DNA of 64,000 nucleotides from Syncephalis fuscata (lineage: Eukaryota > Zoopagomycota > Zoopagomycetes > Zoopagales > Piptocephalidaceae). The first letter of the stretch is position 1; every line of letters begins with the position of its first letter. The position numbers and the translations under genes were made by a program. The notes under the pieces were generated by a model. It ran no database searches, was not told where the DNA came from, and saw only the letters and a list, made by a program, of their open reading frames with translations. This document shows positions 2,346 to 64,000 of this stretch, piece after piece. The stretch is from contig JAHLTZ010000011.1 in NCBI GenBank assembly GCA_025786725.1, positions 434,001 through 498,000 of the forward strand. The letters run 5' to 3'.

Positions 2346-5300
2346 AGAAGAGAGAGAGAACAGACAAGTATTATATGCATATATAATGTGCATATTTCAT
2401 AACGCCAACCATCCCTTTGAAATAGAAAGGTTGTACGCCCATCCCCATACAAACACAAGTGCTTGAACGGCAACGGTGGTCGCGCGTTAAGGGTAGTGAC
2501 ATAATTCATAAAGGATGGAAAATAGCCATAGCGGCAAGCAAAGGCCAAATTCGCCTTGAATTGGCAAATCAGATCACATTCAGTGCATATAAGCTGGTGT
2601 GTTGTTAACGTGTGTGCGTATATAGAAAGAGTGATAAAAAAGCAAAGTGTATTACAGAATAGGTGCGACTAAAACGATCTTTTACAAATAGAACATCGAA
2701 TTTGTTGCTAAAAGCAGCGCTGACCGATAAACTAACCAACACTCACACACTAATAATGACTATTCGCTTCACAATAAAGATAACATCGATAGAATAGTGG
2801 TACATGGATATGGTATGTACTATCTCGATATCCTGCTAATCGAAAAACCATCACCAGTTTCACATTTCATTGTAACTTACCACTAATAAATAGTTTGGGA
2901 TGAACGAGGTGACTAATCTTTTTACGTGATATGAATGATGATATGACGGAAATGTGAATAATGTTGTTGCAATCGATAGATCTGTGTGTTGTTGTTGTCG
3001 TTGTTGTTAATGAAGGATTGGAGCACAAGGTGTTAATCGATTGAGTGAGCGATTGAAGGTTGCGCTAAACGTAAAATGTTGGCAATAAAGATTAATAAAT
3101 AATCGTATGGTGTTGCTAATGACGTGCAGATGTATTTTAAATGAAAGATGGGGTAGAATATAGAAAAGGATTGAAACGAACTATAGATCATAGGCGTGTG
3201 TGTCCATCATCTATTTCAGTGGTAGAATCTGCCTATGGGCAAATACAAGGCTATCGTACTCGCCTATAATACACAGTATCAATATAGCCAAAGGGGAAAA
3301 CGCTAAAAAAGGCATCAACAAAGGAGTTTTCGATAATTCTAGCAAGTTGCGTGCATGAATTGGTTGGCAGACAAACTCCGAGGTCCAAGGAAAGAAAAAA
3401 GACCGATGGTCAATGAAGATAGTGATGATGTCGTGTGCGAATAACTACAAACAGGGGGAAATGTTATCGCGATCCTTCTCCACATTATTATAAATTTTAA
3501 CGAAGATGCGATTGATGATTAGAAGAAACATTGTCGGTAATGTAAAACATATCAACAAATGTAATATAACTTTCTGCACCATTAATACAGTGTGACATGG
3601 AGGGATGGTGATTATGAGTGGTGGAAACAGATTTTTAGCCAAGTTTACTTACACAGCTCACCCATCCTTGAACATTTTTAAATTTTTTAAACTGTAGAGC
3701 AAGGGAAGCAATGGTTCTTAAGGCGTAAAAAAATTCCAAATTTGGGATTAATTAAAAGTCGCAGTATAGGGTTCAAGCCATTAGAGATGGGAATAATAAA
3801 CGATATTATAATGTACAATCCACTAATGGACAAGCAGGAACAATCAGATACAGCTGATTTGTCATAATATCATCGGGTTTACAATATGAGTTCTTAAAAT
3901 CTCATATTCAGCTGTGCCGTTTACTATACCAGCAAGGTATGATTTAAACACAGTATTTGAGAATAAGTATTTTGATAAGCATTGCGCTCTTCTAAAGAGG
4001 AATGAGCTGAAACGATGCACAAATATGCACAAATGGCATTGCTTCGAAGGGAATCACAACATACAAACAATACTTACAAATAAATAGCTACGTTATTAGT
4101 TCAGATAAATAATGAATAATTTCAATCAATATACTAAAACTGCCGCGCCTTAATTATAGGCAACACGTTAAATAAGAAAAGCTTAGGAAAAGCAATAATG
4201 GGGAAAGAGATGCCGATAGACGAAAATTTTAAACGTTTGAGTTGCACCAGCTAGAAGAAAGGCTGACGCGACATAGGCCAAGGCCTACGAGCCAAGAAAG
4301 AGAATAATGCTATCACGGGTCACACTGTAAACCGGATTAACTGCAGATCGGTTGTTCACGCCTGTGGCAGCCATTGGAGACAAGTAATTTCAAATAGATA
4401 TAGAACAATATATTCATTTCATAGTAATGCATTTCTGTCCATTCTTGTGGCATTTGTACGAATTGTACAACCGTAATGATATGGCTTTAGTCGTTTTACA
4501 TAAAAAGTACCTCACCGGTATAATATCATGGTGAGCTTGTGTACAGACACATGCATAGGACATCCAAGGCATTGTAACCGTAAACGCCTCACGCTATCAT
4601 AGCAAAGAGAAAAGATGAAAAATAAATAGAGAGAAATCGAGAGAACGATAATTATGGCAATCCATCATAATAGTGTGCTAATGTACAATAATAATATTAA
4701 TAAATATTACTATTAGCACTATTAATAACAACAACGATTAAATTATTAAGGTTAAGTCTTCCTGCTAAATACACTGCCGATGTCCAATTATCATAGGATA
4801 GTTGTATGACTATGTACGACTTAAGCAAAAAAAGAAATCGTCTATTGCACGCCAAGTATCATACCGACTTACCTTTACGTAATAAATGTAAACAGCTGCT
4901 CTTTACAAATATATTCGTGGCTGTGCGTCGTAATATCGTATATTTGCGAATAAAAAACGAGCGGGAAAGATAGAAGAGAATTGGCAATAAATACCACAAA
5001 TGCGTAAATTGGTTAAATTGGTTGGTTGGCGTAGCTTAAAGAATAAGCACTAAACTTGTCTTTGCTTATAGACCTTGCTAGTAAATGTAGACAAAATAAA
5101 GAGTAAAGAATGTTTGGAAACAAACGATAAAAGAAATATCTAGTAGACAAAACAATAAGCGGGTACTACTAGTAGCTAATTATTAGCGGAACAATTAAAC
5201 GCAACTATAATAAATAGAAAGAACGGATGTGGTCAAGCACTGATAAACAGCAATACACTATGCGCTGACGGAGTTGCTATGGTTTAGAAATTTGAAACGA

Positions 5301-19559: not shown

Positions 19560-20891
19560 TTAGACAATTAGACTAGCATAAGTAAACAGTTCACTATCAG
19601 CAATAAACTGCTCATAGTAATTTTTGTCAACACCAAGACAAATGTCAAATCCACTTTTACCTGTTTGAGGACAAGGTGGTGATTCAAATATGGTACCGAC
19701 AAGTCCATTGGGATAGGTGAATCGCCGACAACATGTCGGATTGCCATATCCAAAGTTCATGCCTGCATAATAATCAAATTTAGACCAGTCGGTAGTAAAG
19801 ATGTCTATGCTACTTTTCCAGCTGCTCTCTCTGTTGATGGCCGATTCAGATTCGTCATCATTTGCCCACACAATCCATTCGTCTTTGCTGGTTTTTTGCG
19901 TCATTGCAATCGCTTTGCGGCGTGCCATGGCTACACTGCCAAGTGAATTATTTAATACATCACTGGCAATCATTGGAAATAGCGATGTTTCAACCGCATT
20001 GCCAAAATAGTTGGACGGAAGTCCTTTCAAATATTTACGCATACTAAATGCCGCAACATCACGCAGCAGTGTTTCCCCTGGAACTTGCCGTGCTCTGATG
20101 GCCGCCCGCCAAACAACCACTAAAACAACATCAAGCGTGGAGAACCATCCATTATTGCGTTCTTTTTCACTAAGCGAATCTATGGCCATCTGCTTTAGCT
20201 GTGTAAGCTTCTCCGGACTAAATCGAAACAAAACTGTATCTCTAGGACTATCCCACATAGCATAATATTGTTGGGTGTCCGGACTAGATAATGGCTTCTT
20301 TAACAAATGTCTAAGATCAAGGCCTAATTTTAGGAACTCTCGATTATGATTTGGCGGCAACGGGCTTTCTCCTCGTGTAAATGCCGCCCATGATTTCATA
20401 AACATTAGCCAGCCGTGTCCATCTGCAACATTATGGTGTGTTGATAGACACATCACAACGCCCGAGTTATTTGCAAACCGTGTAACACGAATGATAAGCG
20501 GTCGATCTTTCGCATCATTCCATGAAGCGGCTTGCCACTCTGGCCGGATACTGCTTTGTGGCCAGTCTGGATTAAACATAGAAATGTCATCTTCGCAGTA
20601 AGACTCCAAATAAAGAACGCCTTTGTCTGTACACTGGATTACGTAGTCGTGATTCTCAAGGCACGCCAATCGACCGGCAGCCATAGGATATTGTTCAACT
20701 GCTTTTTGAAGTCCTTCGACTAGCGTATTAGTTGACATGAAATCTGCCGCTTGCTCATGATTTTTATAAAAGAAAACTTGCTGTATATGTGTTGGAGGGG
20801 GGATATAGTCCGTATCGCTAAGATGATACGTAGTATTGCTATGGTTATTCTTTGGCGCGACCAGAATTTCAATTTTATTAACAACAGTCAT
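19560..20891 (-). CDS. BAHD-family (HXXXD) acyltransferase 1
   Basis: Single-exon protein of 443 residues from the ATG at 20891. An upstream in-frame ATG at 20939 would add 16 residues not shared with the paralogues. The family transfers acyl groups from acyl-CoA to alcohols or amines, usually of small molecules, in the cytosol. The catalytic HNVAD is near residues 150-154, followed by GHGW. The second family motif, DFGWG in plants, appears as NFGYG near residue 378. Sequence layout matches the other three copies here (SDTDYI near the start, NHEQAADFM, VEQYPMAAGRL), but this copy is the most diverged and lies on the opposite strand. Substrate is unknown; fungal relatives include toxin-modifying acetyltransferases, but nothing here points to that. 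Confidence 0.85.
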   Translation of the reverse strand: MTVVNKIEILVAPKNNHSNTTYHLSDTDYIPPPTHIQQVFFYKNHEQAADFMSTNTLVEGLQKAVEQYPMAAGRLACLENHDYVIQCTDKGVLYLESYCEDDISMFNPDWPQSSIRPEWQAASWNDAKDRPLIIRVTRFANNSGVVMCLSTHHNVADGHGWLMFMKSWAAFTRGESPLPPNHNREFLKLGLDLRHLLKKPLSSPDTQQYYAMWDSPRDTVLFRFSPEKLTQLKQMAIDSLSEKERNNGWFSTLDVVLVVVWRAAIRARQVPGETLLRDVAAFSMRKYLKGLPSNYFGNAVETSLFPMIASDVLNNSLGSVAMARRKAIAMTQKTSKDEWIVWANDDESESAINRESSWKSSIDIFTTDWSKFDYYAGMNFGYGNPTCCRRFTYPNGLVGTIFESPPCPQTGKSGFDICLGVDKNYYEQFIADSELFTYASLIV

Positions 20892-21872
20892 GGTGAAATG
20901 ATAGAACGAATGAGTATGGGAAGCGACGATGCTCGACAAGCTGGTGTTTTAATCATATGCACCTCAACAGGTTTATGCAATAGAGCAGGTTTTGTAACAA
21001 AGATGCAAAGTTGCAGTGCAAATAATTTGAAATACACACTTTTAACACAATTAAGTGGTGCTTTTATATAAAACGCAGAATAATAAGTTGATAGAAATAG
21101 CCAACATTTATATTTCAATAGCGTATTTGTTTGTGCCGTAGTTATTAATACTGATAAACATATCTGACGTGTTATATTCTATTTGTATTTCTAATTAACA
21201 TATATATATTACTAGCTTTATAAAATTGATTTATTGTTTATAATGATAATCTGAATTAGAAAGATAAAGAACATTGAAAGGTGCTTGTATTTAATGGTTG
21301 GCTAATAATAATATTTTGTTAAAATGTTGTACCGCGTGTTTTCTTCAATCATTTATAGTCTTCAGCATAAATGATCCAGCTGGTAATGGCGTCATTGTAA
21401 ATCACATAACAGCCACAACTATAAAGATAGACATGAAACGAACTATTTGGAAAAATCACGCGCTGATAATAGCGAATTCTCAATTATCGACTGTCTTGAT
21501 ATGTTAAAAAGTATAAATTTGATTGATTCCAATTGACTCAAGTTTGGCTATTATATATTTGTATTTGGCAATGGCTATAATGAGCGTTGTTATCAATTCT
21601 TTACTATTATTTTTGGTTTATGGTTATTATATTCTTTTAGTATAAATAAATTCATACAAAAATAAGATCGGCATCTGCATTGTCTTTAAAAACAAATCTT
21701 ACGCAGTCTGTTAGCTAAAAAATGATAGCATATTACTAAGTTTTGATGGATATCCAGCAATATTATTAGTAACTAAGCAAGTAGTAGTATATAAGTTTTT
21801 ATTCTGTATATATATTCAAATTTAATTATTATTCAGTAAATTCATTCAGTAAATTTAAATTTGACATGACTG
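20892..21872. other. Intergenic region between divergent acyltransferase genes
   Basis: Shared upstream space of acyltransferases 1 (-) and 2 (+). A TATA-like element for gene 1 lies at 21061-21070; otherwise AT-rich with no gene seen. Confidence 0.5.
21061..21070 (-). promoter_or_regulatory. TATA-like element upstream of acyltransferase 1
   Basis: Reads TATATAAAAG on the minus strand, about 170 bp upstream of the ATG at 20891. The position is plausible for a TATA box with a leader of about 130 nt. In AT-rich DNA such matches also arise by chance. Confidence 0.35.
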
Positions 21873-23874
21873 ATACATTTATTCCAATATTTACTTAAAC
21901 TTTGAATAGAAATAGCAAAAGATTGTGCTTGTGTTGTGCTAAAAATTGCTATGAAAATATAGCTGATTACACCAGCCAGTAGCTATAAATGCTTGGCATC
22001 AAAAGTCCAATTATGTGATATCTATCTTATAGGTCGTGCAATTCTGCGCGCAATCCCACATACGTTAAAAATAATGATAAAATGTATCAGCATTGTATAA
22101 ATTAGTCAATATTGCTAGCTGCGTGCACAATTTTTCCGTACCGTTTAGAGCCCAAGGCCTTAGCAACAACACAAAGAAACATGACTGCTTCTAGTATTGA
22201 GTCATTCGGTCGGTAAATCTAATTTATTGTTAAATCAACGCAGCTATTAGATAAAACAATCATAAAAATAAATTCATTGTTCTAATAGTTATTTTATTCG
22301 GCTATTACGTGATTTTACTTGAGTCATATCATGTATTTTGTAATGGGTCTTATCAGCGTGTTCTCATAGGTCAACGTGATGACACAGCAGGCGTCAATCA
22401 TGTGCATATTACAAAATTTGGTTTTTTGGCTTAAAGGTAAATTATCTTTATAAGAAACCAAAAAACAGTATGGTAGATATTGCTATTATACTTCACTGTC
22501 AGCCATTCAAACCACTGCCATCTTTATTCCATCGTTCGAATATGACCTTAAACGCTATCGTTGACACTTTGGTCAATTCAAGAAATGGCCACACACAAAC
22601 CAAGTACGAATTAAGTGACACTGATTACATTGCTGGCCGATTTCACACGCAGCGAGTTTTTTTTTATAAAAACCATGAAAATACAGCAGATTTCATGCCT
22701 ACTGAAAAGTTGATTAGTGCGCTGCAGAAAACAATCGAGCAATATCCTATTGTTGCCGGCCGATTGGTATCCATTGGAAACGACCAATACGAAGTGCAAT
22801 CACTTGATGAAGGTGTGCCATACCGGGAATCATATTGTGAAAATGATATTTCAGCATATAATCAGAACTGGCCAGATAGCAGTATTTCGCCTGAATGGCA
22901 AGCTGTCTTTGCAAACGAAGCAAAAGCCATACCGACAGTTATACATGTCACGCGATTTGCAAATAACTCGGGATTAATGATTTGTCAGGCTGGAAATCAT
23001 TACATTGCTGATGGTACTGGTTGGTCAATATTTTTAAAAACATGGGCGGCATTTGCACGAGGAGAGACACCGCCTCCACCAAATAATAATCGAAAATTAC
23101 TACAGCTTGAACCTGAATTAAAACATGTATTGAGAAAACCAAGACTAAATCAGTTTGAAAAATTATACAAGGCTATAACAAGTGTTTCTAGACAGCCAGC
23201 ACTACTTCGATTTAGCCCGGAGAGCCTTGCACAGTTGAAACAAGCGGCCATTGACTCACTCAGTGAGAATGAACGTGGTACTGGATGGTTTTCTACCCTG
23301 GATGTTGTTTTGAGCTTAATATGGCGCGCAAATACTAAAATTCAGCAAGTTCCACCAGAAAAATTACTGGCCGGATGTGGATCTTTTAATATGCGAACTT
23401 GTCTCGATACTATTCCGGATAACTATTTTGGCAACGTAATCGATGCAACAATGCTAGAGATAACAGCAGGTGATTTATTAAATAAATCGCTTGGTAGTGT
23501 AGCTTTAGCACATCGTCAATCGCTTATTGTTAGGGAGAGAAGCGATGCCAAAGAATGGATCATATGGGCAAATACTGAAGATGCAGTTTCACCAATTAAT
23601 AGGGCATGTTGTAAAGCAGACTTTGATTTTATTAGTTCAGATTTGTCCAAATGTAACTATTATGCTAAAATGGATTTTGGTCGTGGTAGTCCAGTCTGCT
23701 GTAGACGATATATACCGTCCAATGCATTTTTCACCATTATTTACGAAGCGCCGCCTTGTCCAAAAACAGGAAAAAGTGGTCTTGATATAACCGTCATGGT
23801 TGAAACCAAATTCTATGAAGATTTCATTAAGGACAGCGAGCTATTTACCTATGCTCAATTACTTGAATAAATAG
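21873..23874 (+). repeat. Tandem duplication, unit 1
   Basis: 2002-bp unit repeated at 24322-26323 with an offset of 2449 bp. It contains about 670 bp of upstream DNA plus the complete acyltransferase 2 gene. The upstream part and the first four fifths of the gene are almost identical between copies. Homology stops right after the stop codon. Confidence 0.95.
22542..23870 (+). CDS. BAHD-family (HXXXD) acyltransferase 2
   Basis: Single-exon, 442 residues from the ATG at 22542 (MTLNAIVDTL). An upstream in-frame ATG at 22470 would add 24 residues, but a start here matches gene 1. The catalytic HYIAD is at residues 153-157, followed by GTGW. The second motif is DFGRG at about 378-382. It is part of a tandem duplicate with acyltransferase 3: the proteins differ at about 30 positions, over half of them in the last 85 residues. 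A TTATAAG box lies about 90 bp upstream of the start and is also present in the copy. Expected reaction: acyl-CoA-dependent O- or N-acylation of an unknown metabolite. Confidence 0.88.
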   Translation: MTLNAIVDTLVNSRNGHTQTKYELSDTDYIAGRFHTQRVFFYKNHENTADFMPTEKLISALQKTIEQYPIVAGRLVSIGNDQYEVQSLDEGVPYRESYCENDISAYNQNWPDSSISPEWQAVFANEAKAIPTVIHVTRFANNSGLMICQAGNHYIADGTGWSIFLKTWAAFARGETPPPPNNNRKLLQLEPELKHVLRKPRLNQFEKLYKAITSVSRQPALLRFSPESLAQLKQAAIDSLSENERGTGWFSTLDVVLSLIWRANTKIQQVPPEKLLAGCGSFNMRTCLDTIPDNYFGNVIDATMLEITAGDLLNKSLGSVALAHRQSLIVRERSDAKEWIIWANTEDAVSPINRACCKADFDFISSDLSKCNYYAKMDFGRGSPVCCRRYIPSNAFFTIIYEAPPCPKTGKSGLDITVMVETKFYEDFIKDSELFTYAQLLE

Positions 23875-24321
23875 TTTATAGCAAGTTTTGCCAACAAATA
23901 TAAATTAACTAAAATTGTTGTAGCCTTAATGGATATCAATAATATTTTGTACTCAATTGCTTATACGATACTGGCTTGATTAAGTATTACCTGCTTTCTT
24001 ATTGAGCAGTTTTTTAATAAATGTGCACTCAGCTTGACACAATATTCTTGATTTGGTAAGTATTTACAATAAAAACTTTTTATTAGCCAGCGATTACTAC
24101 AGTTCTTGTCGACTTGTATGGTTTACGATGATTTATGTGATAAATAAATTATATAATGTGTTTGCGATATTTGCTTATTTTGTGGTCATACAATCTAATT
24201 AGTATAATTATTATTGCATTTATAATAATATGTTGAAAGTAAAAACTCGTTACTTTCAACTGACTTATACTTGATTACTAAACAATGAGTTTATTTGGCT
24301 CAATTAAATTTAATATAGCTA
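23875..24321. other. Spacer between the tandem units
   Basis: 447 bp, AT-rich, with no reading frame and not part of the duplicated unit. Confidence 0.6.
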
Positions 24322-26323
24322 ATACATTTATTCCAATATTTACTTAAACTTTGAATAGAAATAGCAAAAGATTGTGCTTGTGTTGTGCTAAAAATTGCTA
24401 TGAAAATATAGCTGATTACACCAGCCAGTAGCTATAAATGCTTGGCATCAAAAGTCCAATTATGTGATATCTATCTTATAGGTCGTGCAATTCTGCGCGC
24501 AATCCCACATACGTTAAAAATAATGATAAAATGTATCAGCATTGTATAAATTAGTCAATATTGCTAGCTGCGTGCACAATTTTTCCGTACCGTTTAGAGC
24601 CCAAGGCCTTAGCAACAACACAAAGAAACATGACTGCTTCTAGTATTGAGTCATTCGGTCGGTAAATCTAATTTATTGTTAAATCAACGCAGCTATTAGA
24701 TAAAACAATCATAAAAATAAATTCATTGTTCTAATAGTTATTTTATTCGGCTATTACGTGATTTTACTTGAGTCATATCATGTATTTTGTAATGGGTCTT
24801 ATCAGCGTGTTCTCATAGGTCAACGTGATGACACAGCAAGCATCAATCATGTGCATATTACAAAATTTGGTTTTTGGCTTAAAGGTAAATTATCTTTATA
24901 AGAAACCAAAAAAACAGTATGATAGATATTGTTATTATACTTCACTGCCAGCCATTCAAGCCACTGCCATCTTTATTCCATCGTTCGAATATGACCTTAA
25001 ACGCTATCGTTGACACTTTGGTCAATTCAAGAAATGGCCACACACAAACCAAGTACGAATTAAGTGACACTGATTACATTGTTGGCCGATTTCACACGCA
25101 GCAAGTTTTTTTTTATAAAAACCATGAAAATACAGCAGATTTCATGCCTACTGAAAAGTTGATTAGTGCGCTGCAGAAAACAATCGAGCAATATCCTATT
25201 GTTGCCGGCCGATTGGTATCCATTGGAAACGACCAATACGAAGTGCAATCACTTGATGAAGGTGTGCCATACCGGGAATCATATTGTGAAAATGATATTT
25301 CAGCATATAATCAGAACTGGCCAGATAGCAGTATTTCGCCTGAATGGCAAGCTGTCTTTGCAAACGAAGCAGAAGCCATACCGACAGTTATACATGTCAC
25401 GCGATTTGCAAATAACTCGGGATTAATGATTTGTCAGGCTGGAAATCATTACATTGCTGATGGTATTGGCTGGTCAATATTTTTAAAAACATGGGCGGCA
25501 TTTGCACGAGGAGAGACACCGCCTCCACCAAATAATAATCGAAAATTACTACAGCTTGAACCTGAATTAAAACATGTATTGAGAAAACCAAGACTAAATC
25601 AGTTTGAGGAATTATGCAAGGCTATAACAAGTGTTTCTAGACAGCCAGCACTACTTCGATTTAGCCCGGAGAGCCTTGCACAGTTGAAACAAGCGGCCAT
25701 TGACTCACTCAGTGAGGATGAACGTGGTACTGGATGGTTTTCTACCCTGGATGTTGTTTTGAGCTTAATATGGCGCGTAAATACTAAAATTCAGCAAGTT
25801 CCACCAGAAAAATTGCTAAATGGATGTGATACTTTTAATATGCGAACTTGTCTCGATACTATTCCGGATAACTATTTTGGCAACGTAATCGATGCAACAA
25901 TGCTAGAGATAACAGCAGGTGATTTATTAAATAAATCGCTTGGTAGTGTAGCTTTAGCACATCGTCAATCGCTTATTGTTAGGGAGAGAAGCGATGCCAA
26001 AGAATGGATCATATGGGCAAATACTGAAGATGCAGTTTCACCAATTAATAGGGCATGTTGTAAAACAGACTCTGATTTTATTAGTTCAGATTGGTCCAAA
26101 TTTAATTATTATGCTAAAATGGATTTTGGTGATGGTAGTCTAACCTGCTGTAGACGATATATACCGTCCAATGCACTTATCACCATTATTCATGAGGCAC
26201 CACCTTGTCCAAAAACAGGAAAGAGCGGATTTGATATCACCGTCATGGTTGAAACCGAATTCTATGAAGATTTTGTCAAAAACAATCAATTGTTTACCTA
26301 TGCTCAATTACTTGAATAAATAG
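24322..26323 (+). repeat. Tandem duplication, unit 2
   Basis: Second copy of the 2002-bp unit at 21873-23874. Only scattered substitutions occur over the upstream region and most of the gene, but many more in the last ~250 bp of coding sequence. Confidence 0.95.
24991..26319 (+). CDS. BAHD-family (HXXXD) acyltransferase 3
   Basis: Intact 442-residue duplicate of acyltransferase 2, with HYIAD at 153-157 (followed by GIGW rather than GTGW) and DFGDG in place of DFGRG near 378. Most substitutions in the otherwise near-identical first 380 codons change the amino acid (for example RVFF/QVFF and KLLAGCGSF/KLLNGCDTF). In the last 85 codons silent and replacement changes are both common. It has the same promoter sequence as its twin, so the two are probably co-expressed unless one has diverged in specificity. 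Confidence 0.88.
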   Translation: MTLNAIVDTLVNSRNGHTQTKYELSDTDYIVGRFHTQQVFFYKNHENTADFMPTEKLISALQKTIEQYPIVAGRLVSIGNDQYEVQSLDEGVPYRESYCENDISAYNQNWPDSSISPEWQAVFANEAEAIPTVIHVTRFANNSGLMICQAGNHYIADGIGWSIFLKTWAAFARGETPPPPNNNRKLLQLEPELKHVLRKPRLNQFEELCKAITSVSRQPALLRFSPESLAQLKQAAIDSLSEDERGTGWFSTLDVVLSLIWRVNTKIQQVPPEKLLNGCDTFNMRTCLDTIPDNYFGNVIDATMLEITAGDLLNKSLGSVALAHRQSLIVRERSDAKEWIIWANTEDAVSPINRACCKTDSDFISSDWSKFNYYAKMDFGDGSLTCCRRYIPSNALITIIHEAPPCPKTGKSGFDITVMVETEFYEDFVKNNQLFTYAQLLE

Positions 26324-27161
26324 CGCGCAGTAGATTTTATTAATACGTATAAATTAGTCAAAATGATTTCTTATTAAATACTTATTTTAAAACGACTTTA
26401 ATTGTAGTGGATATTAATGGAGCATTCAAATCTAGAAATACTAGATATAATAAACAAACATGTAGTAAGTAAAGTGACAAAAATAATTGTTTAATTAATA
26501 GATGGCATAATATGTGTATGATAAGCTTAATAGCACAAAGCAAATAGGATAAATATATCACAATTATTGAAAATGTAGAACCACTGATCTTATAGCTAAA
26601 GTGACGCATTAACATATTTGTTTATTGTATGTTATTCATAATGCTGTAGAATCAATTGAATTGATACATTATTGAATTATGTGTAGACTATGCTTCTTGA
26701 TCGATACTAGATGTTTTGTCAGATCCAAACTGAAGCTAGCGATCAGCACACCATATGACGCTTTTTTAATACCTTAAAAAGTAGACACTATCATTAAGAC
26801 TATGCTTATTTTACTTTTGTGCATTGTTGAACACTGAGCAAATAGAACATTCTCTGGTGCTACATTATGCAGCAGCATGTAAAAAGTATAGGCGAGATTG
26901 CAGCAGAATACTATTTCATTACCTGTTTTTTTACTCCATTTCCGGTAATAATTGGTCGTTTACTCAAACACACTCGGGCAGCAAAGAATAATCAGTAAGT
27001 TAAACCATGTGCTACATGTGTATACCATACTATTTAAACTTGCTCGATTTCAAGTTGCCTACCTATATACAAATGTATTGGCCTTTTTATCATATTACTC
27101 AATAATTGAATTGGATATACCATTTATCTTATACGTTCTTTCATATTTTATTCTAATAGCT
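26324..27161. other. Intergenic stretch between acyltransferases 3 and 4
   Basis: AT-rich. The reading frame open from 26952 up to the acyltransferase 4 start encodes a hydrophobic, non-conserved stretch and is probably not coding. Nothing else seen. Confidence 0.5.
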
Positions 27162-28486
27162 ATGCAGGTAGAAAATACGATCGAAGTCTACATTACTCCA
27201 AAAAGTGTTTCTGTGGATAGCAAATATCAATTTAGCGACGTAGAATATATTATCGGTGCTGTACATACACAGCGATTCTTCTTTTATAAAAATCATGAAC
27301 AAACAGTGGATTTTATGTCTACGGAGAAGCTGATTGATGGTTTGCAAAAAACAGTTGAGCAATATCCTATGGTTGCCGGCCGATTGGTTTGCGTTGGAAA
27401 TGATGATTATGAAATTCACTCTCTTGTAAGGGCGTACCATACAAAGAATCCCATTGCGAAAAGGACATATCAGCGTTTAATCAGAATTGGCCAGAAAGCA
27501 ACATACCACTTGAGTGGCAGGCCGTGCCTTGGGGTGAAGGAGCTGATCTACCGGTTGCTATTCATGTTACAAGATTTGCAAACAATTCAGGACTTGTCAT
27601 GTGCGTCTCAGGAAGCCATCTCGTATCAGACGGATCTGGATGGACGATGTTTATTAAAGCATGGGCGACATTCACACGAGGAGAGATACCATTGCCGCCA
27701 AATCATAACCGACAACTCTTGCGGCTAGATTCTAAATTACGGCATCTATTGAAAACGCCATTACCAGATTTAGCTAATAAGCAATATGAAAGAATAGTGG
27801 TATTTCTCGAAGGCCTATATTACTCAAATTTAAGCCAGAAAGTCTTGCACGACTGAAGCAACAAGCCATGGACTCACTTAGTGACGACGAGCGCAGTGCC
27901 GGATGGTTTTCCACGCTTGATGTCGTTACGGCACTAATCTGGCGAACAACAGTTAAAATTCGCCAACTTCCAGCAGACGAAATTCTAGGAATGCAAAGCT
28001 TAACTAATATGCGTAGCAAATTAAAGAATTTCCCAAATAACTTTTTTGGCAATTCGGTTGATGGGTCAATACTGGTAATGCAGCGAGCGATATATTAAAT
28101 AGTTCACTTGGCACTATAGCTTTGGCGAATCGCCAAGTGCTCAAAGTAGTGGACCAAATGACTGCGGAAGAATGGATCTTATGGGGAAACTCTGATAATG
28201 CCCGATCAATAATCAGCCGAGGACTTGAACAAAAGGTATTGATTTCCTTACCACTGACTGGAGCAAGTTTGGCTACTATACCGAAATGAACTTTGGCAAT
28301 GACAATCCTGTCTGCTATCGACGATATGCATATCCCAATGTAAAGCTCAGTACTATAATGGAAGGTTCATTATGCTTGAAAACAGGTAAACGTGAAATTT
28401 TAGTTTCATTTATGGTCGAGGACAGCTGGTATGAAAGCTTTATCAACCATGAAGATATAGCTAGCTATGCTACTGAACTTTTCTAA
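27162..28486 (+). pseudogene. BAHD-family acyltransferase 4, frame-broken
   Basis: Full-length homologue of the three neighbouring acyltransferases, starting at the ATG at 27162 (MQVENTIEVYI) and ending at 28486. The frame is interrupted near 27425, 27805, 28070 and 28236, so no single frame covers the protein. Between breaks all family regions are present. The catalytic motif is SHLVSDGSGW, an H-X3-D, and the second motif is NFGNDNP, which has lost the usual second glycine. Four breaks in 1.3 kb is denser than in the housekeeping genes of this window, where indel errors are suspected. A decaying gene is therefore more likely, but sequencing error cannot be excluded because the remaining sequence has no nonsense changes of its own. 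Confidence 0.7.
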
Positions 28487-42710: not shown

Positions 42711-44705
42711 TTATACTTTTGAAACTTTTGGCTTTGGCTCTTCTGGCTTAGGAACTTCTGGCTTAGGAACTTCTGTCTTTGGTTCCTCTTGCTTTGGCGT
42801 TTCAGAGCCTCCACATTCTGTTGGGAGTGAAAAGTCCTGGGTGACCTTCATAAAACCATCAGTAGCGGCCTTCGCACCTACACCACGCTTGGCAAAAGCA
42901 GCCCAGATTTCACACTTGTGCTTGCCACCGGTGATTTGCTGCTCAGCTTGGAGGATGGCGTCACGGGCAGAGATGAATGTTGGACGACATGGCTGTAACT
43001 TCATGCCATCGATGACCAATTTGGCAGCCAGAGTGTTACCTTTGGTGGTATCAACTGAGTACTTGTCTTCGCTGAATCCAAGCTTGTCGACCAAGTTCCA
43101 GTACATTTGGTATAGAATGTTTGCCCAGATTTCACCCATAGCGTGCACGGATCTCCAGCTGCCGGTGTAGACGAGGCCATAAGTGGTAGGATTGACCTTC
43201 ATGTCAGTGGAGTAGGAATATCTACGAATACCCTTAAGGTTAACGTAGTCACCCAGGCTAGTAACCTTGTCGTGAGTGTCGGTGGACTTTAGGCGCAGCC
43301 AAATACCAATGAAATCACCCCAGCCTTCGCCCATACCGCCGGACTCGCCATAGCCCAAACAGTTGGAGTTGTCAGGACCACCTGTTAGGCGAATGGAAAT
43401 ACCGTGGCTATACTCGTGAGCAATGATGTCGTTTTCAAAATCGCCATCACGCTGCGGATCTGTGATAGTCCATGTGTACATGCGCATACGTGGACGTTGA
43501 CCATCGGGTGGCGTGAAGAAGTTGGCATTGTTGTAGCCTGATGGATCCTGGGCATGAGCCAAGACGTGGTCGCCACCTTTACCACCCTTCTCGTAGTTGT
43601 CGTTCTGGAAATTACCAGCTGCTTCATCAAAACCGTATTGATAAAATACATCATGCATAATGTTGTTCATATAAAACAAATTGGTAACTGCAGCATCACG
43701 ATAGGTTGCTGGGTCCTTTGTCAAATCGACGGGGTAGTCAAAGTTAAGATCGGCGGAGACTGGCTGTGCAATATTAGTGTTGAGTTCACTGTTGGCCGGT
43801 ATAATCGCCTCTACGTTGTTGCCAAGCGTGGTGTTTGTTTGAGCACCGGTAAAGTCGTGCCAGCCTTTGGGAGAGGCTTTTGCGTTGGCCGGATTAGTCA
43901 ACACGGCGCGGCCATTGGTACCAATGTCGTTGTCCTCGAGCTTGACAACGTTGTATGAAGCATCGGAAATCCAGTCGACCAAGGAAATGACTTTTCCACC
44001 ATTAGCTGGCACGTGAGCATTGAAATAGTTCTCTCCAAGGTCAATAAAGAACTCCCAGGTGGCTTCTAAAGCACCTTCGCTTGTGTGGATGTACGATTGT
44101 TGGGCAACAACCTCGTCCTTAGCATAAGGAATACCAGTCAAAATGTACTGTGGTTTGCTACCACGTAGGCTGGCACGGGAAGAGACGGTGATCTTGGATG
44201 CATCGATGGGTCGACCAATGTGTTCGGCCAATGAAACAAAAGCCTTGTTTGGCTCGACGAAGCGTGGGGACGACTGGCCAGCCCATAGATTGCGCTTGGA
44301 AGCATCAGTGTTGTGGTAGAAGCTGTCGCCATAAGCGATAACTGTGCCCTTTGAGTCAACATTGACGGAAATGTCACCGTTGGCAACTTCGACACCTTGG
44401 AAAATTTGCTTGAGATAGACGTGCGTCACACCAGTTGATTTGGTGCTATAGGAGGTCTTGACGGCAAAATCGCCATTCTTGACCTTGAGATGCTGACGAG
44501 CAAAAGCCTTTGCAACATCCTCCGGCTTGCCATTGGAAGCAAAATTGCTGCCTTGTTGACGAAGGGCTGCGGAACGTGATGCTACTTCGTATTTTGGAAG
44601 AGGATCAGGACTGACTAGCTGGACTTTGACGCGTTCTGCCGTCGCGAGGCTTATGGCGTTGACCATAGCCAACACGGCTAAAGCAAGACGAGCGTTCATA
44701 ATCAT
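42711..44705 (-). CDS. Fungalysin, secreted M36 metallopeptidase
   Basis: Intact intronless gene for a 664-residue secreted zinc protease that degrades extracellular protein. A signal peptide (ARLALAVLAMVNAISLATA) leads into an inhibitory FTP propeptide with HVYLKQIFQGVEVANGDISV. The mature M36 domain starts near residue 250. The active site is HEYSH at about residues 433-437, with catalytic Glu between the two zinc-ligand His. The third ligand lies in GEGWGDF, about 25 residues on. Family marks GLVYTGSWRSVHAMGEIWA follow. The last ~25 residues are a Pro/Lys/Glu repeat (EVPKPE units) not needed for catalysis. GC content and codon use are higher than in the surrounding DNA, fitting strong expression. 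A purine-rich leader and possible promoter extend to about 44960. Confidence 0.95.
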   Translation of the reverse strand: MIMNARLALAVLAMVNAISLATAERVKVQLVSPDPLPKYEVASRSAALRQQGSNFASNGKPEDVAKAFARQHLKVKNGDFAVKTSYSTKSTGVTHVYLKQIFQGVEVANGDISVNVDSKGTVIAYGDSFYHNTDASKRNLWAGQSSPRFVEPNKAFVSLAEHIGRPIDASKITVSSRASLRGSKPQYILTGIPYAKDEVVAQQSYIHTSEGALEATWEFFIDLGENYFNAHVPANGGKVISLVDWISDASYNVVKLEDNDIGTNGRAVLTNPANAKASPKGWHDFTGAQTNTTLGNNVEAIIPANSELNTNIAQPVSADLNFDYPVDLTKDPATYRDAAVTNLFYMNNIMHDVFYQYGFDEAAGNFQNDNYEKGGKGGDHVLAHAQDPSGYNNANFFTPPDGQRPRMRMYTWTITDPQRDGDFENDIIAHEYSHGISIRLTGGPDNSNCLGYGESGGMGEGWGDFIGIWLRLKSTDTHDKVTSLGDYVNLKGIRRYSYSTDMKVNPTTYGLVYTGSWRSVHAMGEIWANILYQMYWNLVDKLGFSEDKYSVDTTKGNTLAAKLVIDGMKLQPCRPTFISARDAILQAEQQITGGKHKCEIWAAFAKRGVGAKAATDGFMKVTQDFSLPTECGGSETPKQEEPKTEVPKPEVPKPEEPKPKVSKV

Positions 44706-61492: not shown

Positions 61493-63214
61493 AGTGAAAA
61501 AAGCTAGTTGAAAAAAGCAACAGTAAAAACAAATGTAAAGAAAAAAGGTAAACAAGCAATTAACAGCTTTATTAACGCGCAAAGTTTTACATATTAGCTG
61601 CATTAAACAGTGTGACGGCACCTTCAAGTTGAACTACAAATTTGAGTATTAAGATTAACGATTCATTTGTTTAATGCCATTAACTAGGCTTTTTATAATA
61701 TTTGGCTTATTTGGATATTTAATTATTATATGGTCAATTTGTTAAATGTTGTAAAGTTGTTTTGTATAATAATACTGCTAATACTAGTGCGTGGTATTTT
61801 ATAGTTCCTTTTTATTCACGTAGATAGTATACGGTATAGCAATTTCAAAATTCGTTAATTATCTATTTGGATTTATAAACAATCTAGTCAGTTATTTTAT
61901 TTTACGTTTTTGTGTTTGCACTGATAGTTATGATCATGGCAACATAGTTTACTGTTTCCGTAGTTTTAACAGTATATATAGTTATGTTGTTTTTTAACTT
62001 TTATAGAATATAAAAGCGATTTTCTACAAATTTGTCAATATCTTGAATGTTAAAAGTAGTGGCTTTAGAGAAAAAGTCATGCTACTAGTCAAGGATGCAA
62101 TGTTATAGTGCCATTTATCTGTAAGCTGGTAACGACATGTTTGAAGTCTAACACTGCCATCAAATCCCGGTTTTACGGCCTTGTCTCAATACAACTCGCC
62201 TTGGATTTTTGACAATTTCGGTGTATCACCAGTAGCGAGTCATAGCAATTATAATATAAACAAGTTATTCCTATCAAACTGTTAGTAAACAAACCATTTA
62301 TAAACCAGAATTGCCACTGGTTGGCATATCATATATTATTGCTGTAAACTCGAAACAGGCTGCATATGACTGGGGTCGCCTTGCGAATACAGTCTAATGT
62401 CCTTGCATTACTTTACGGACAGACAGTCAATAGCATCAATGTTCAGGTTCAATGCTTTATAAAATGCCGTTACACGACAGCTAGTGATTGATAGTAGCAA
62501 TTGATTGATAGAAACAAGGCTTGTATCAGTATTTGATAGTGTAGCGCCAAAGTCAAGCTGTTCATTCCTATAGCTAAGCTGCAATGCCAAATTAAAAGCA
62601 TGTGCAAGACCAATTAATATACTTTCATGGCTTAGAAAACTAAAGCAAGATTATGCGCAACAATAGACATCTGTAACAAAATAAAAGTTTGATACGTTAA
62701 TTTTACTATTATATTGGGTCAAGCGTTGCTTGTAATGCATATAAATAGTGATAATTGATTATTATTTTTAAGAATACAGGAGCAACAGAACAAGACATCC
62801 ACCTCCATCGTATGGTGAGCCGTGTAACAACAATACAAGTAGATACGTACAGTCTTGTTACATATGCCACTGGATAAATGATATTGCTGTGCCATTTATG
62901 TAAATGCCGAGCAGGTTTAAAACAAAGGCCAGGGATTATATCTGTCACGCCATTGACCTATTTGTATATGGGGCCTCAAACCATCACATGTATGTGTTGT
63001 TATTGGTTTAGATTGCGCATCAGTGGCACAATCTATACAAAATTTGCTAGTATTCCAGCATAGATACAAGCTTAAATAGCCGAGATAATACACACATCAA
63101 ATTAGTAGCATAATTTTTACGCCCTATTTCTACCAAGCACTTACCACTATTTACTTTATACCAGTGACTCTTACTGTCCATTATATTTATTTGTTTTACC
63201 AAATCAATATTATC
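61493..63214. other. Intergenic region with possible coding remnants
   Basis: Mostly AT-rich. On the minus strand, 62590-62410 has a 60-codon frame (LSYRNEQLDFGATLSNTD). Short coding-like pieces continue in other frames down to about 62080 (for example DGSVRLQTCRYQLTDKWHY). They could be one degraded or indel-broken gene, but I do not recognise it. The last ~100 bp are the T-rich leader of the micro-exon gene. Confidence 0.3.
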
Positions 63215-64000
63215 ATGAAGCTCTATAGTATTACCGTCTGTACCATCGCCATGGCGCTTGTGGCCAATATGGTCGTAGTGAATGCTAAGCCAACTCTATC
63301 CCCTAATAGTACGTTGTAGTTACAATAATTTGTTATTTATCTAATTAAATACTGTTTATATTGCTAAACCATGCTATTAGCTCGTAAGTAGCCTTATATA
63401 TAATCAGATATATACTGAATATATACTATGCGACATTTATGTTCAATAACTTGTATTAATAGCTGGTAAGTTGTATTATATATTAATCAATAGTCCGTTA
63501 ATTAAATATCGTGCTTTGCGTGTGCTCAATACCTTGTATTAATAGAATGTAAGTAGTGTTGTGAATCGATTTGTAATAAACTAAACGTATGTTATGTACT
63601 ATGTACCTGATGGCTTTTATTAATAGTTTGTAAGTGGTATTACATATTGATTAGCCATTTACTAAATATATGCCATCCATCATATATGTTCAACAATTTG
63701 TATTAATAGGGGGTAAGTGTTATTGTATATTAACCAATTATACACTAATTATATGCTATGTATTGTGCGTGTTTAATAATTTGTATTAATAGGTCGTAAG
63801 TAACATTGTGGATAATTAACAATATATTAAATATATGCCATTTATTGTGTGTGTATCAAATGAATTGCATTAATAGGAGGTAAGTGACATTTAATATTAG
63901 CAAAATGTATATACTAAACATATGTCCTTCATGGCCTATGTTAATAACCTATATTAACAGTTCGTAAGTAACACGTGCATTAATTAACCTTAAACTAAAC
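63215..64000 (+). CDS. Putative secreted protein with array of 3-nt exons, partial (3' end beyond right edge)
   Basis: Exon 1 (63215-63308) encodes a signal peptide, MKLYSITVCTIAMALVANMV then VVNA, with likely cleavage before KPTLSPN. It ends in phase 1 at a GTACGT donor. After a 72-nt intron (63309-63380) come eight candidate exons of 3 nt each: CTC 63381, CTG 63463, AAT 63546, TTT 63627, GGG 63710, GTC 63793, GAG 63877 and TTC 63961. Each is preceded by AG and followed by GTAAGT. Because every exon is 3 nt, phase is kept and the joined sequence stays open (about TPEFWGRV after exon 1). The gene continues past the window. Function unknown; secretion is inferred from the signal peptide. Alternatively the whole array could be one long intron, with only exon 1 and later exons being coding. 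Confidence 0.55.
63384..64000 (+). repeat. Tandem array of homologous ~82-bp intron-like units
   Basis: Eight units (the last incomplete), each starting GTAAGT and ending ATTAA(T/C)AG plus a variable triplet. Complete intron lengths are 79, 80, 78, 80, 80, 81 and 81 nt: 63384-63462, 63466-63545, 63549-63626, 63630-63709, 63713-63792, 63796-63876 and 63880-63960. An ACTAAA/ACTAAT-like branch motif followed by ATATG recurs about 35-45 nt before the acceptor, and a TGTGTGTT-like stretch about 20-25 nt before it. Interiors have diverged substantially between units; the ends have not. Confidence 0.9.

Follow-up and report, generated by a model that had tools for sequence, protein, structure and literature searches.

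The closest described systems to the gene analysed here include the micro-exon genes (MEGs) of schistosomes, whose micro-exons are given as 3-81 bp in the abstract of one report and as 6-81 bp, mostly 15 bp, in its text (PMC10526429), with introns of 0.1-5 kb and with exon skipping reported (PMC10526429, PMC7653826). A preliminary description of the present DNA had stated that micro-exon genes have larger exons than those seen here, which stands for the usual size of mostly 15 bp (PMC10526429). One operational definition of a micro-exon gene asks for seven or more exons, of which half or more are both shorter than 70 nt and divisible by three, with a run of four or more such exons (PMC7653826). 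Aphid bicycle genes contain approximately 17 exons on average, nearly all of phase 2 (PMC9168663). Single exons of 3 nt or 1 nt are on record in Ncam (cited in PMC8042270) and in plant APC11 and VPS55 (PMC8831610), and the fungal lipS report gives two 3-nt exons in each of two genes (PMC5639578); the same description had said that exons this small exist singly. According to its abstract, PMC11121469 holds that functional microexons were not described in filamentous fungi before 2024. Neither a report of 3-nt exon arrays nor a study of Syncephalis intron structure was found among the papers that the literature searches listed, which included few subscription papers and no bioRxiv preprints.

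Syncephalis fuscata (order Zoopagales) parasitises other fungi. It was among the species of a mycovirus survey (PMC7482067). The stretch of its genome analysed here (the window) is 64,000 nucleotides long and covers 434001-498000 of contig C13, and the gene of interest lies at its end. Eight AG-triplet-GTAAGT units had been described after a signal-peptide exon at a regular spacing of about 82 bp; all eight triplets were present at those positions with AG directly 5' and GTAAGT directly 3', and the measured spacings were 81-84 bp (82, 83, 81, 83, 83, 84 and 84 bp; Table 1). The array pattern of acceptor, triplet and donor is ATTAATAG-NNN-GTAAGT. ATTAATAGNNNGTAAGT was matched without a mismatch by six of the eight units, and the other two had 1 and 3 mismatches; these six array sites were the only exact matches within the window, and at up to 3 mismatches 41 matches were counted in comparison to 16.8 in shuffles. 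Exon 1 encodes MKLYSITVCTIAMALVANMVVVNAKPTLSPN. The array had also been said to run past the window, and in the fetched locus that contains the window end plus DNA beyond it (L009) two further triplets, AAC (donor GTAGGT) and GCT, bring the total to 10 and are followed at L009:4208 by what we propose to be the terminal exon (GGGCTCGTCGTGAAGATTAA), whose stop lies at L009:4225-4227. Homology of the L009 3'UTR with other family members begins at L009:4284, which is consistent with a terminal exon near 4208. The predicted joined product of the window's gene is MKLYSITVCTIAMALVANMVVVNAKPTLSPN-TPEFWGRVQRWARRED. With only 10 triplets and no cysteine, this gene alone has little statistical power.

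Table 1. Features of the array gene in the window (the intron-family HMM had these array introns among those from which it was built).
Feature	Window coordinates	Strand	Basis
5' flank block common to family	63068..63214	+	L009 3068-3222 vs L047 5' flank, 74.5%, E 7e-21
Exon 1, 94 nt, predicted signal peptide and short pro-region	63215..63308	+	Phase 1 end, AAT A / GTACGT (donor)
Intron 1, 72 nt	63309..63380	+	Gene model
3-nt exon 2, CTC	63381..63383	+	Splice-pair model
Array intron	63384..63462	+	Intron-family HMM E 1.2e-8
3-nt exon 3, CTG	63463..63465	+	Splice-pair model
Array intron	63466..63545	+	Intron-family HMM E 9.7e-11
3-nt exon 4, AAT	63546..63548	+	Splice-pair model
Array intron	63549..63626	+	Intron-family HMM E 3.2e-7
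3-nt exon 5, TTT	63627..63629	+	Splice-pair model
Array intron	63630..63709	+	Intron-family HMM E 4.9e-13
3-nt exon 6, GGG	63710..63712	+	Splice-pair model
Array intron	63713..63792	+	Intron-family HMM E 4.2e-16
3-nt exon 7, GTC	63793..63795	+	Splice-pair model
Array intron	63796..63876	+	Intron-family HMM E 3.4e-9
3-nt exon 8, GAG	63877..63879	+	Splice-pair model
Array intron	63880..63960	+	Intron-family HMM E 2.4e-6
3-nt exon 9, TTC	63961..63963	+	Splice-pair model; next triplets AAC L009:4042, GCT L009:4124
Next array intron, first part only (window end)	63964..64000	+	Splice-pair model

A search of the rest of the genome had been proposed in the preliminary description; the array pattern, run over the whole Syncephalis fuscata assembly (28.95 Mb, 299 contigs), returned 3437 places matching ATTAATAGNNNGTAAGT at no more than 1 mismatch, in comparison to 50 for a reversed-pattern control. 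A 6-nt spacer in place of the triplet gave 67 matches (30 in the control), exact cores with spacers of 4-30 nt pooled gave 83 (32 in the control), and the exact pattern restricted to AAN triplets gave 170 (0 in the control). When acceptors and donors were scored separately in 30 fetched loci, 502 of the 534 pairs lying 0-60 nt apart had a spacing of 3 (8 pairs in the reversed control); since these loci were picked through the 3-nt pattern, it is the genome-wide counts that constitute the unbiased test of exon length. Scaled by detection, the genome holds a rough estimate of 4200 triplet exons. The exon 1 family comprises at least 150 copies (345 candidates, 150 scored), a count that includes intronless members and is not split into members with and without arrays.

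Directly examined DNA amounted to approximately 0.3 Mb out of 29 Mb, and most of it had been selected for its arrays. The 25 array rows in the fetched loci represent, as we read them, 23 genes (L020- and L021- are one gene, as are the two L022 rows), and exon 1 lies inside the fetched stretch in 20 of them; that of L046 lies 230 bp outside, and none was found for L018 and L043. Twenty-two array models, three of them near-duplicates, were built without frame information and hold 8 to 44 tiny exons each, with a median intron of 78 nt and donors that include 508 GTAAGT, 12 GCAAGT and 2 GCGAGT. Among 597 modelled exons, 582 were 3 nt long, ten were 6 nt, three were 2 nt, and one each was 4 and 27 nt. 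Most of the 6-nt exons (L045:806-811, L045:972-977, those in L012, L015 and L038, and others) carry the acceptor AATATTAG and not AATATTAATAG, which looks like a 3-nt upstream shift of the acceptor with the gain of one codon.

Exon 1 ended in phase 1 in all 20 array models that contain it, so that a codon would take its first base from the end of one triplet and its other two from the start of the triplet that follows; these exons are homologous and do not represent 20 independent tests. At joined phase-1 junctions only 1 stop was counted in 420, in comparison to 24.9 +- 3.9 with the order shuffled, and 0 of 2000 shuffles were as low. Phase 2 gave 28 stops where 29 were expected, which is chance, and phase 0 gave 0 in 494 where base composition predicted 8.4. 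Neighbour junctions of the refined models contained 1 stop in 487 in phase 1 (27.5 with order shuffled), which upholds the suggestion that a secreted peptide would be built one codon-equivalent per exon. Eighteen of the 20 models with exon 1 were stop-free, the others being L011 with two stops after a 2-nt exon and L042 with one stop and a frameshifted exon 1. The near-duplicate genes L011, L014 and L016 were dropped from the stop, peptide, triplet-adjacency and intron-triplet counts. YAG triplets, which would form a competing acceptor, numbered 0 where 8.1 were expected; as YAC (2, 7.0 expected) and YAA (3, 7.5 expected) were also low, this absence is weak evidence of avoidance.

Joined peptides were counted in 16 non-redundant genes. 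L042 was excluded for its stop and its frameshifted exon 1, L043 and L046 because the fetched stretch does not contain their exon 1, and two exons not divisible by 3 were omitted, one in L038 and one in L040. These peptides contained 0 stops in comparison to 22.2 in order shuffles, and 60 cysteines in comparison to 31.1 when triplet order was shuffled. An even cysteine count occurred in 12 of the 16 genes (4.8 shuffled) and C-x3-C in 9 (1.7 shuffled). A six-cysteine framework resembling that of intronless members was present in 3 of 16 (0.00 in order shuffles, 0.01 in residue shuffles), a figure that is partly after the fact because the spacing ranges were set once the peptides were known; the stop, cysteine and parity counts do not depend on these ranges. 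Joined peptides such as RR-GPKECNACMAKCMEGKDQDRGPWEECRNISCYRFCG (L039) and RR-DPGNCEACERCFDTHPFWKTWGSYCRSDFCKDWC (L044) can be set beside the intronless protein P0121, RR-GPKNPAKCKECINECEGVPKPSMKEKCNKPGRCKAECA. In 15 of 20 genes the peptide encoded by exon 1 closes with Arg-Arg, in some followed by a single further residue; we take this to be a Kex2-like site, in which case the array would encode little beyond the mature peptide. The joined peptides of L009, L013, L017 and L022 have 0-1 cysteine, and that of L019 is possibly a coiled coil.

Of the 16 joined peptides, only L038 was clearly recognised by an HMM built from the mature domains of four intronless members, with L022 at 1.6% of order shuffles and L045 at 4% of residue shuffles; an HMM from these four domains is too narrow. 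Word-based searches of 5.8 billion proteins found no joined array proteins and returned 12 annotated family members, all from S. fuscata, which are contiguous members or look like read-throughs into introns; several of them, P0123, P0124, P0128 and P0130 included, seem to continue from exon 1 straight into an intron. Pfam gave nothing above cut-off for 10 proteins, the best being DUF4396 on residues 1-40 of the window's product (E 0.0037), and an AlphaFold prediction of P0121 with 4 sequences had a pLDDT of 60. The family member P0131, on contig C1, has the same kind of signal peptide, after which comes a long mature part that lacks cysteine and is dominated by Ala, Leu and Lys.

The preliminary description had further envisaged a combinatorial generator, in which subsets of triplets are skipped, one gene yields many peptides and this diversity is the function. 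Its premise that skipping never shifts the frame was sound, as 11 exons of 6 or 27 nt add to the 582 of 3 nt, and leaving out the damaged exons of L038 (4 nt) and L040 (2 nt) gives cysteine-rich, in-frame products. The generator itself fared poorly: skip-one junctions contained stops at chance level (29/445, 25.4 expected), unlike the nearly stop-free neighbour junctions, and the same was true of two-exon (24/405, 23.1 in shuffles) and four-exon skips (21/334, 19.3 in shuffles). Stops were somewhat fewer than in shuffles for three-exon (14/368 and 21.1; so low in 2.6% of shuffles) and five-exon skips (10/301 and 17.8; so low in 1.3%), which we read as noise or a repeated-block effect, and which may reflect weak selection on these skips. 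Even cysteine counts are a property of the full ordered product, and for this reason together with the chance-level stops at skip-one junctions we rejected skip-based diversity and give it little chance of being correct. Exon skipping would keep the frame, and the junction counts give no clear sign of selection for it.

Recursive splice sites are acceptor and donor pairs a few bases apart, and the pairs described here resemble them. In such a scheme the triplets would be ratchet points in one long intron, absent from an mRNA that joins exon 1 to the terminal exon. Ratchet points need no frame, yet the stop depletion and cysteine excess are strong and depend on order, and recursive sites leave 0 nt, yet a spacing of 0 was found once in comparison to 502 times for a spacing of 3; recursive splicing was rejected on these grounds and is highly improbable. 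A non-coding satellite, an ~82 bp tandem repeat with a variable 3-base spot, would account for the regular unit and for the 83-bp repeat that TRF calls at 63660-63891. Variability is however limited to the 3 bases between splice signals. The existence of intronless paralogues, the scarcity of phase-1 stops and the flanking of the arrays by exon 1 and a terminal exon also speak against a satellite, which the stop depletion and cysteine statistics contradict for the family; it was rejected, and its probability is close to nil.

Four intronless paralogues (L047-L050) possess the same signal peptide followed by an uninterrupted cysteine-rich domain, L047 having been aligned and the likeness of L048-L050 judged by eye; the tail of P0121 (69 aa, S. 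fuscata) is 100% identical to a sequence on contig C236 of this genome. Aligned to the array loci, the 5' side of L047 matched 18 genes and none of its matches fell in L013 or L014. In 13 of the 18 the end of this match lay no more than 3 nt from the exon-1 donor, and in five the match stopped earlier (L009, L017, L019, L021 and L022). The 3' side matched 15 loci and resumed at query 356-363 in 9 of them, with the stop codon at 364, and later (query 374-418) in the other 6. In a 14-locus survey of terminal exons, from which L043 was left out (it has an L047 3' match), the acceptor [CT]AAA[CT]ACAG opened the terminal exon in 11 with a phase-1 stop within 0-5 codons, while at least 19 codons stayed open in the other two phases, with a single exception in L037. 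In L046 one more terminal exon, the twelfth, was placed by eye (TAAATGCAG followed by CATAATC), and no clear terminal acceptor was found in L020 and L041. As these ends are homologous, the 11 terminal exons are one observation repeated and not eleven.

The common 5' flank, exon 1 and 3'UTR make the array and intronless members look like one gene, whose mature part is in one piece in some copies and broken up in others. A genome search for nine of the joined array domains as contiguous copies found none, an empty result that carries no weight by itself. The intronless genes may be ancestral, or all introns may have been lost at once through cDNA. The anatomy of the arrays, their reading frame, its dependence on order and the flanks common with an intronless paralogue are features of the DNA as it stands. 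In the window's gene, the homology to L047 on the 5' side reaches only to where exon 1 begins, exon 1 does not end in Arg-Arg, the product lacks cysteine, the array is short and the first triplet has a weaker acceptor, all of which would fit a decayed, dead member of a family whose arrays are real. We regard this as unlikely, since all 10 of its triplets are modelled with splice pairs and its phase-1 frame is open up to a terminal exon at the expected place.

Array introns of different genes had a mean identity of 0.674 in comparison to 0.599 for shuffled bodies, and within-gene identity was higher, reaching 0.87 (L022) and 0.86 (L046). No positional homology of introns was detected between genes, identity being 0.67-0.68 at every index difference. 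The intron-family HMM gave 7 matches in the window, all inside this array, and 632 matches in 34 fetched loci, of which 593 lay in modelled arrays and the remaining 39 in L011, L018, L020, L022, L043 and L046, all array-bearing loci. Triplet bases agreed at 28%, the background, where flanking introns were 85-90% identical on average (904 pairs), at 34% where these were 90-95% identical (118 pairs) and at 95% above 95% identity (78 pairs, duplicated genes included). Without near-duplicate genes, and with at least 95% identity on both sides, identical triplets were found in 7.9% of 755 pairs over 20 nt, 53% of 34 pairs over 30 nt and 35% of 31 pairs over 40 nt, the background being ~2.5%. This can be interpreted as some recent copies bringing their triplet with them, while introns are also homogenised or spread without it.

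The origin that we favour for the arrays is the spread or conversion of an introner-like intron family, to which we give roughly an even chance; tandem duplication of units that each comprise an intron and a triplet, with the triplets changing very fast, is less favoured and rather doubtful. Neither explains the strict 3-nt step. Recent single-unit duplication was not borne out as a source of triplets, there being no excess of identical neighbours (20, 18.4 expected); identical triplets were in excess at distance 4 (28, 16.5 expected), and L040 and L043 contain repeated blocks. Faster change in triplets than in introns was not established in three duplicated gene pairs (8/236 vs 101/6179, P 0.06). 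In L046 (C256:740001-745500) the spacing is nearly always 81 bp, with introns 86% identical and triplets mixed, and this array looks young. A repeated element of ~0.4 kb was also observed inside array introns (L044:2666-3153 and long introns of L011, L022, L039 and L046), and its 351-base core had at least 42 genome-wide matches (54 candidates, 40 scored); 41 of the matches were long, and several fell at array loci. One end of this element resembles a tRNA-derived promoter; ARAGORN and Rfam found nothing in it.

Other features of the window were recorded. Three long open reading frames, of which two are nearly identical, lie at 19560-27728 together with a fourth, shorter one; all four resemble BAHD/trichothecene-type acyltransferases. 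A fungalysin metalloprotease lies on the reverse strand at 42711-44705, with a PKPE-rich C-terminal 15-bp tandem repeat at 42718-42797, and its best named relatives are from S. pseudoplumigaleata (74%), S. plumigaleata (68%) and S. fuscata (65%).

In summary, we hold with high confidence that this gene family stores secreted peptides as arrays of 3-nt exons meant for ordered, full inclusion. Exon 1 would supply a signal peptide, mostly with an Arg-Arg site after it, and end in phase 1; 8 to 44 tiny exons, nearly all exactly 3 nt and set apart by introns of ~78 nt from one intron family, would then be joined in strict order with none left out, each codon combining the final base of an exon with the two opening bases of its successor, and a terminal exon would add the stop and 3'UTR. 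From the sequence we infer that splicing in vivo proceeds as modelled and that full inclusion dominates. The products would be small secreted peptides, mostly cysteine-rich and probably effectors or toxin-like, serving mycoparasitism. Such genes would be the extreme case of split genes, with essentially every mature-protein codon interrupted, and would mean thousands of 3-nt exons in one small genome. The arrays test how splice sites are paired by the spliceosome when the exon between them is too short for exon definition, and they offer thousands of natural replicates, and a secreted repertoire of this kind can be missed by annotation. Array genes and intronless paralogues together make bulk intron gain or loss testable.

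More tentatively, and with rather less than even confidence, the architecture may be read as codon by codon, a proliferating intron family separating the single triplets of the fungus's secreted arsenal. In that reading introns and codons would evolve as separate parts, as the introns are interchangeable in sequence and the triplets differ. If true, recombination or intron movement would reshuffle peptides codon by codon with the frame intact, and the arrays would in effect be an engine that diversifies the mature peptides while the signal peptide in front of them stays constant.

In comparison to known systems, the internal exons of aphid bicycle genes are longer than 3 nt. Bicycle genes resemble the S. 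fuscata arrays as a large, fast-evolving family of putative effectors with many small exons of one phase, which is nearly always phase 2 there and phase 1, with 3-nt exons, here (PMC9168663). Ncam, APC11/VPS55 and lipS indicate that spliceosomes are able to include exons of 1-3 nt, although as these sources present them such exons are singletons or pairs in ordinary genes (PMC8042270, PMC8831610, PMC5639578). Introners form families of similar introns at many positions (PMC9860276, PMC4457414), as do the array introns by the identities given above; unlike introners, which spread through many unrelated genes, matches to the array introns occurred only at array loci in the ~0.3 Mb examined, where these introns lie only inside arrays at a 3-nt spacing and in one phase. 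The MEGs of Schistosoma, Echinococcus and Hymenolepis share with the arrays their many consecutive short exons divisible by three, their difficulty for gene finders and, in schistosomes, secreted proteins (PMC10526429, PMC7653826). All 22 predicted models fall under the operational definition of a micro-exon gene (PMC7653826), each with at least 8 internal exons, 582 of 597 being exactly 3 nt. Exons of 3 nt and a median intron of 78 nt differ from schistosome-type sizes, and the arrays further depart from MEGs in having 3-nt internal exons nearly throughout, a fungal host, introns of one sequence family and no sign of selection at skip-one junctions. Micro-exon genes themselves are known, and the S. 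fuscata arrays are an extreme form of them.
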